Below, in pieces: positions 46,176-46,912 of a stretch of 64,000 nucleotides of DNA. Source of the stretch: Methanofollis fontis (GTDB lineage Archaea > Halobacteriota > Methanomicrobia > Methanomicrobiales > Methanofollaceae). The DNA lies in the NCBI RefSeq assembly GCF_004297185.1, contig NZ_PGCL01000002.1:62001-126000 (forward strand). The letters are read 5' to 3'. The notes below the pieces were generated by a model. The model was not told the DNA's origin, did not search any database, and saw only the letters and a program-made list of their open reading frames with translations. The position numbers and the translations under genes are program-made. The stretch's first letter is position 1. Every line of letters starts with the position of its first letter.

Positions 46176-46186
46176 ATATAAAAAAA
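46175..46186 (+). promoter_or_regulatory. TATA box ahead of a structured RNA candidate
   Basis: AATATAAAAAA starts at the moaD stop. A start 25-27 bases downstream falls at about 46205, just before the long stem at 46211-46266. No good coding frame follows directly, which points to a non-coding transcript. Confidence 0.5.
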
Positions 46187-46204
46187 TGAAGTCAGGTGTG
46201 GCCT

Positions 46205-46440
46205 GTCAGAGGCAGGGAAAGGAACGGCGTCCATGCCCCCCCAGAATGGACCGCCTCCTTCCTGCCAGCAGATCGGGGCTGCCTGAAAAGATCCCCATCC
46301 ACTGTTATCCGCATGTCCTCGCGGACAATGCCGTGATGAACTCCGGCAACCAGCATGTGGTACCGTCTCACCTTCTGTCCCGGTGGGGACAACCGGTGAG
46401 GCCGGCAGGCCTGTACTTCCTTTCGTACCTGTTTTACCAG
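46205..46440 (+). ncRNA. candidate structured non-coding RNA
   Basis: A chain of strong stems: a long imperfect stem 46211-46266 (GGCAGG/CCTGCC, AAGGA/TCCTT, GGC/GCC, GTCCAT/ATGGAC, about 20 pairs); TGTCC-TCGC-GGACA near 46315; TGCCG/CGGCA with a 10-base loop near 46330; CTCACC-TTC-TGTCCC-GGTG-GGGACA-ACC-GGTGAG near 46370-46403; and AGGCC-GGCA-GGCCT. It starts right after a TATA box and overlaps no convincing gene. It does not show the conserved SRP or RNase P motifs. It could be a regulatory RNA or a leader. Ends are approximate. Confidence 0.45.
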
Positions 46441-46534
46441 TAGGTGCCCCGTCATAGCATGCGTGAATTGTGTCCCCCCACGTTCACAATTCATCTCCCT
46501 CTCAGGGGCAATGCTCTCTATTACAATGTCAGCA

Positions 46535-46540
46535 TATAAA
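46535..46540 (+). promoter_or_regulatory. TATA box of a leaderless small ORF
   Basis: TATAAA in AGCATATAAATG, centred about 27 bases before the ATG at 46566, predicting transcription starting at or beside the start codon. Confidence 0.45.
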
Positions 46541-46565
46541 TGTTTCGCATGCCCGAACTCTCGAT

Positions 46566-46712
46566 ATGGTGGCAGGATCAAAAAATACTTCTAATTTAGT
46601 AGATGTGCACATTGCAGCGGCAATCCGATATGGGTTTATCTGTTCAGATGGACTCTCATATCTCTTCTTCGTCCAGAAGGAGGGTGAATACCCCGATGAT
46701 GGGCCAACCTAA
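46566..46712 (+). CDS. small leaderless ORF, 48 residues
   Basis: MVAGSKNTSNLVDVHIAAAI followed by a mixed hydrophobic/polar stretch to EYPDDGPT. No family is recognised. The main support is the TATA box placed for a leaderless start and an AT-rich region after its stop that could hold the next promoter. It may be a real small gene or a chance frame inside an RNA-producing interval; longer in-frame starts at 46470 exist but lack promoter logic. Confidence 0.4.
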   Translation: MVAGSKNTSNLVDVHIAAAIRYGFICSDGLSYLFFVQKEGEYPDDGPT

Positions 46713-46755
46713 AGTTATATATATTAAATAACAATATATGATATAATTTGTCGAT
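46711..46755 (+). promoter_or_regulatory. AT-rich promoter region before the TauE/SafE gene
   Basis: A run of alternating A and T (TTATATATATTAAATAAC and AATATATGATATAATTT) with ATATAT half-sites in inverted orientation, the strongest AT stretch in this part of the window. It probably carries the promoter of the gene at 46913, leaving a leader of about 140 bases. Confidence 0.45.
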
Positions 46756-46912
46756 TATGGATCTCTCCCGGCCGCATATCCTTCTGGTCCGCCGGTGCGG
46801 TGAAGATCCCGTGCCCCTGAGGGAATGATTGACAGCGCACAACACACAGTATCTGCCTGGACCGTCACCGGACAGGTTATTGTATCATGATGCGATTGTT
46901 CTCAGGAAATTC

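Follow-up and report, generated by a model that had tools for sequence, protein, structure and literature searches.

A candidate stand-alone structured RNA gene conserved in the archaeal genus Methanofollis

The window analysed here, a stretch of 64,000 nucleotides from Methanofollis fontis, very probably contains, on its minus strand at positions 46178-46512, a stand-alone gene for a non-coding RNA. This reading is based on a conserved promoter, a covarying fold of two domains, a U-tract at the 3' end, the lack of a conserved open reading frame, and the presence of the gene as a single copy at a locus of its own. The ends of the predicted RNA were placed from the promoter and the U-tract, with the 5' end at about 46512 and the 3' end within the U-tract, at about 46178-46186. 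The coordinates of the individual features are given in Table 1.

Table 1. Predicted features of the RNA gene, in positions of the window
Feature	Position	Strand	Basis
Predicted gene for a structured non-coding RNA of ~335 nt	46178-46512	-	11 of 12 genus members; covarying consensus structure
Putative archaeal promoter: BRE CGAAACA (46547-46541) and TATA box TTTATAT (46540-46534)	46534-46547	-	sequence match, spacing
5' domain: H1 TGCCCC (46510-46505) / GGGGCA (46450-46445), enclosing hairpin H2 (46493-46485 / 46472-46464)	46445-46510	-	consensus structure
G6 tract, hairpin loop 1; context GUGGGGGGAC (46481-46472)	46474-46479	-	UGGGGGGAC invariant in 11 genomes
3' domain, with H3 as its closing helix: GAAAGGAAGUACAGG (46424-46410) / CCUGACUUCAUUUUU (46196-46182)	46182-46424	-	consensus structure
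Arm H4/H5/H6: GCCG/CGGU; CUCACC (46400-46395) / GGUGAG (46372-46367); UUGUCCCC/GGGACAGA	46362-46406	-	consensus structure
Invariant 25-mer CAUGCUGGUUGCCGGAGUUCAUCAC of the core, covering the 5' strand of H7 and the first part of H8	46333-46357	-	identical in 11 of 11 genomes
H7: GGUUGCCGGAG (46351-46341) / CUCUGACAGGCC (46211-46200)	46200-46351	-	98% of cells paired
Hairpin H8	46307-46337	-	both-side changes at 4 pairs
Hairpin H9/H10 with CUUUUC loop	46266-46304	-	both-side changes at 4 pairs; loop invariant
Hairpin H11/H12/H13	46212-46265	-	covariation between species
G7 tract, hairpin loop 2; context CUGGGGGGGCA (46244-46234)	46236-46242	-	CUGGGGGGGC invariant in 11 genomes
Predicted U-tract terminator ATTTTTTTA, directly after invariant CACCTGACTTC; the 'TATA box' of the preliminary description	46179-46187	-	T-rich run in 11 genomes

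Conservation and consensus fold

The DNA search, the covariance models and the exact 25-mer all detected the RNA region at the same locus in 11 of the 12 genomes of Methanofollis, including that which contains the window (G000). In 29 genomes taken as a sample of the order's other families, the DNA search gave no match. The 25-mer, with up to three mismatches allowed, was absent from the 220 genomes of other genera of the order (232 were searched in all), and among 185 genomes of the order the covariance models R1 (3' core) and R2 (5' domain) identified the RNA in this genus only; the strict filters of these searches could miss very diverged relatives. There was also no significant match at the DUF1894 locus in other families of the order, and no match in viral contigs. 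An exact 20-mer found in a Planctomycetaceae contig (L041) was not matched by the covariance model and was attributed to chance. At G001:C31:1482-1542 (L091), the 5'-domain model gave a second, weak match, with 27 bits and an E-value of 0.0096 per genome.

The 11 sequences were aligned and folded, and a coherent structure appeared with RIBOSUM scoring. The consensus comprised 93 pairs in 13 helices, and an independent count over the 11 genomes gave standard pairing in 93.6% of the cells. Covariance analysis, which the preliminary description of the window had proposed as a check, detected changes on both sides at 22 pairs in the 11 genomes (shuffles gave 13.0 +/- 1.9, and 0 of 500 reached 22); since the sequences come from few lineages, this covariation represents several, not dozens of, independent events, fewer than the cells. 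When the partners were slid by 1-3 columns as a control, pairing fell to 37-45%. In the window itself, the segment 46190-46445 folded more stably than shuffled sequences on both strands (z -2.6 on the plus and -3.1 on the minus strand).

The consensus fold consisted of two domains, the 5' domain formed by H1 and H2, and the 3' domain closed by H3. Both sides had changed in five of the nine pairs of H2, and the 5'-domain model R2 matched 11 of the 12 genus members. Inspection of H1 by eye gave no support for a kink-turn. In H3, GAAGUACAGG and CCUGACUUC were invariant and all cells (100%) were paired. A pair of H4 changed from G-C to A-U in four genomes, and H5 was UGCCA/UGGCA in the relatives versus CUCACC/GGUGAG in the window. 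Helix H7 was retained through G-U wobble where AACC had changed to AGCC or GGCC, and H11 covaried between species as GGCAGGA/UCCUGCC, GGCGGGA/UCCCGCC and GGCGGAA/UUCUGCC. Pairing in H6, H11 and H12 was only 75-85%, partly as a result of misalignment.

Two of the stems pointed out in the preliminary description were recovered as parts of the structure that covaries across the 11 genomes: the imperfect stem of about 20 pairs (46211-46266) corresponds to H11-H13, and CTCACC...GGTGAG (46367-46372 / 46395-46400) around TGTCCC/GGGACA corresponds to H5-H6. A third, AGGCC-GGCA-GGCCT (46399-46412), did not form a conserved hairpin; its bases fall in H3 and H4, and most relatives read GCAAGCCTG.

G-tract loops and possible mode of action

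The transcript would start at about 46512 and stop at about 46180, facing the moaD operon in convergent and TauE in divergent orientation; it would be a free RNA of ~335 nt that may act in trans. Two of its hairpins would expose the invariant G6 and G7 loops as putative contact sites, with the remainder serving as a rigid scaffold. By analogy, the loops may pair with C-rich single-stranded RNA, a tentative reading that we rank first: in sRNA154 of Methanosarcina, two loops contact mRNAs (PMC5867862). A search of the genomes for complements of the G loops revealed no enrichment over reversed-pattern controls, and thus offered nothing positive for base-pairing to particular targets, which are neither proven nor excluded by this result.

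Close behind the loop-pairing reading we place the possibility, doubtful in its turn, that the same minus-strand RNA acts as a scaffold without pairing to targets, either by binding protein or by forming oligomers, for example through G-tract contacts between copies or intermolecular G-quadruplexes. The large, compact, multi-helix fold is consistent with such a role, as are the invariant core motifs in its junctions, the CUUUUC loop and the G loops, and the lack of enrichment of the loop complements. In addition, homo-oligomers are known among bacterial RNAs, in GOLLD, ROOL and OLE (PMC12286853). A more far-reaching form of the scaffold, which we regard as unlikely, is that the RNA belongs to a new class of scaffold RNAs in archaea, whose invariant G6/G7 loops would hold copies or partners together, for instance by intermolecular G-quadruplexes, in an RNA-only or ribonucleoprotein complex particular to Methanofollis.

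Strand, promoter and 3' end

Four lines of sequence evidence, namely the consensus energies, the asymmetry between G-U and A-C cells, the BRE/TATA element and the U-tract, point to the minus strand as the one that probably encodes the RNA. The RNAalifold consensus energy was -81.5 kcal/mol on the minus versus -59.6 kcal/mol on the plus strand, and with RIBOSUM scoring the values were -163.7 and -147.0, respectively. The structure read on the minus strand contained 89 G-U cells versus 19 A-C cells, which is the reverse of what would be expected for a plus-strand RNA and thus favours the minus strand. The putative promoter was the sole match to the BRE/TATA pattern RWAANNTTTAWA in the 64 kb window, and in all 11 genomes the TATA box was located 29-31 nt upstream of TGCCCC, the first helix. 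At the other end, a T-rich run follows the invariant CACCTGACTTC, which closes the 3' domain, on the minus strand of 11 of the 11 genomes. An intergenic position with a promoter and a terminator of its own is one of the features expected of a trans-acting archaeal sRNA; here the conserved BRE/TATA element and the U-tract are the predicted counterparts. A scan for sigma-70 promoters and bacterial terminators gave no matches, as expected for an archaeon.

According to the preliminary description, a structured RNA extended over 46205-46440 and was transcribed on the plus strand from a TATA box at the moaD stop (46177-46186). The proposal of a structured RNA with its own promoter was supported, with the strand reversed and the promoter moved to 46534-46547; the proposed extent lies inside the feature, which reaches about 46512, and its promoter reaches 46547. 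A plus-strand RNA that begins at the TATA-like sequence is now very improbable. The window does read GAATATAAAAAAATG, and single-sequence folds are equally stable on the two strands; the mean z-scores of -2.8 (minus) and -3.3 (plus) did not separate them. However, the TATA box is not kept in the relatives (GGCATCAAAAAATG, GGATAAAAAAGAAAAG, GATAAGAAAAAAAGTTG), whereas the T-run of the other strand is, and there was no match to the BRE/TATA consensus on the plus strand of the window. A transcription start about 25 nt downstream would also remove the invariant GAAGTCAGGTG at 46188-46198, and both the G-U asymmetry and the consensus energies favour the minus strand. The U-tract is TATA-like on the plus strand in the window only, where it reads TATAAAAAAA, and this misled the preliminary reading. 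The locus also illustrates how one sequence by itself can suggest the wrong strand, which comparison then puts right.

Genomic context, known RNA classes and significance

The RNA is flanked on one side by FdhD, ThiF/MoeB, DUF1890, DUF1894 and a ThiS/MoaD-like protein, and on the other by a TauE/SafE exporter. Its position between DUF1894/moaD and TauE was constant, including in G002 and G004 (L014, L015), where moaD is replaced by ~100 bp of unrelated sequence and the RNA and DUF1894 are retained. The identity of the moaD protein was only 55-63%; the RNA, by contrast, contains long invariant blocks, for example, CATGCTGGTTGCCGGAGTTCATCAC. DUF1894 was found in all 41 genomes of the order searched, usually as two copies at separate loci of one genome. 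The spacer between the first helix of the RNA and TauE (46520-46906 in the window, 277-535 bp across the genomes) aligned poorly from one subgroup to another, despite an identity of ~60% in TauE itself, and is partly A+T-rich, with TATA-like runs at 46715-46760.

In G007 (L081, 1279-1492), the gap between DUF1894 and TauE is 213 bp long and lacks both moaD and the RNA. Of the genes from FdhD to TauE, this species is thus left with DUF1890 and DUF1894 in between, whereas moaD, ThiF/MoeB and the RNA are gone. Models R1 and R2 found no RNA elsewhere in the genome, which is 88% complete. Since the protein tree places G007 as the sister of G002 and G004, both of which carry the RNA, its lack of the RNA is most likely explained by loss, and the RNA would thus be dispensable in that species.

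The constant position could suggest a cis-acting element, such as a 3' UTR or a terminator belonging to the moaD operon, or the leader of TauE. We consider this highly improbable: the RNA persists without moaD in G002 and G004, it is gone in G007 though TauE and DUF1894 are kept, and it is directed away from TauE, the start of which lies 277-535 bp past the first helix. A cis-regulatory leader or riboswitch was also rejected, as the RNA lies on the minus strand, heads into the moaD operon from its 3' side and ends in a U-tract.

It is scarcely to be expected that the RNA modulates RNase P, in which case loop 1 GUGGGGGGAC would bind the fully complementary GUCCCCCCAC that RNase P RNA carries in its CR-I/P4. 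This exact complement is located at G000:C3:15445-15454 and at equivalent positions, and GTCCCCCCAY matches inside the RNase P RNA of at least seven genomes. However, the CR-I/P4 motif is near-universal and internally paired, so that the matches amount to one coincidence, not seven; in addition, there was no enrichment elsewhere, and the complement of loop 2 had no match in RNase P RNA. The complementarity of loop 1 is most likely a coincidence.

A short protein-coding gene is the least credible alternative: a 102-aa ORF on the plus and a 129-aa ORF on the minus strand are open in the window, but neither had a Pfam match above the cut-off, stops and indels break the frames in the relatives so that none is open throughout, in agreement with the earlier view that no gene covers the region, and the pattern of conservation tracks the base pairs.

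The comparison with Rfam 15, also proposed in the preliminary description, was performed at gathering and relaxed thresholds for the window and four relatives, and the best results were sub-threshold matches at chance level. The archaeal RNase P RNA (RF00373; CR-I GAGGAAAGUCC / CR-V ACAGAA) gave no match at gathering or at E<=10, and the archaeal SRP RNA (RF01857) gave no covariance-model match, as the preliminary description had anticipated; the true copies were found with full score at G000:C3:15399-15732 and G000:C1:349511-349822, respectively. A C/D box sRNA (RUGAUGA and CUGA, 50-70 nt) was rejected, the conserved alignment blocks containing no C/D box pair; a weak sR52 match (17 of 50 bits) lay on the plus strand across the moaD stop. 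The scan for tRNA and tmRNA identified none, and a search of a literature library found no report of the Methanofollis RNA. The RNA family is new in the searched libraries.

The Methanofollis RNA resembles sRNA154 of Methanosarcina mazei (PMC5867862) in being an intergenic, stand-alone RNA of a methanogen, conserved in one genus and with a predicted fold of two contact loops. It differs in its about 13 helices, two domains and G-tract loops, and the likeness concerns general features, with no sequence relation claimed. In length, high GC content and compactness it is similar to the archaeal RNase P and SRP RNAs, but scores with neither model. To our knowledge, few archaeal non-coding RNAs of such size and structural complexity are known beyond RNase P, SRP and rRNA. 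The bacterial GOLLD, ROOL and OLE RNAs were also first reported without a known function. Like these large ornate RNAs (PMC12286853), that of Methanofollis is large, highly structured and non-coding; unlike them, it is archaeal, about 335 nt long and without an Rfam match.

In conclusion, this RNA offers a structure that can be tested, a promoter placed with precision and several host species, one of which has lost it naturally, so that its function is directly approachable. The predicted RNA appears to represent a clear new archaeal RNA family of narrow range.
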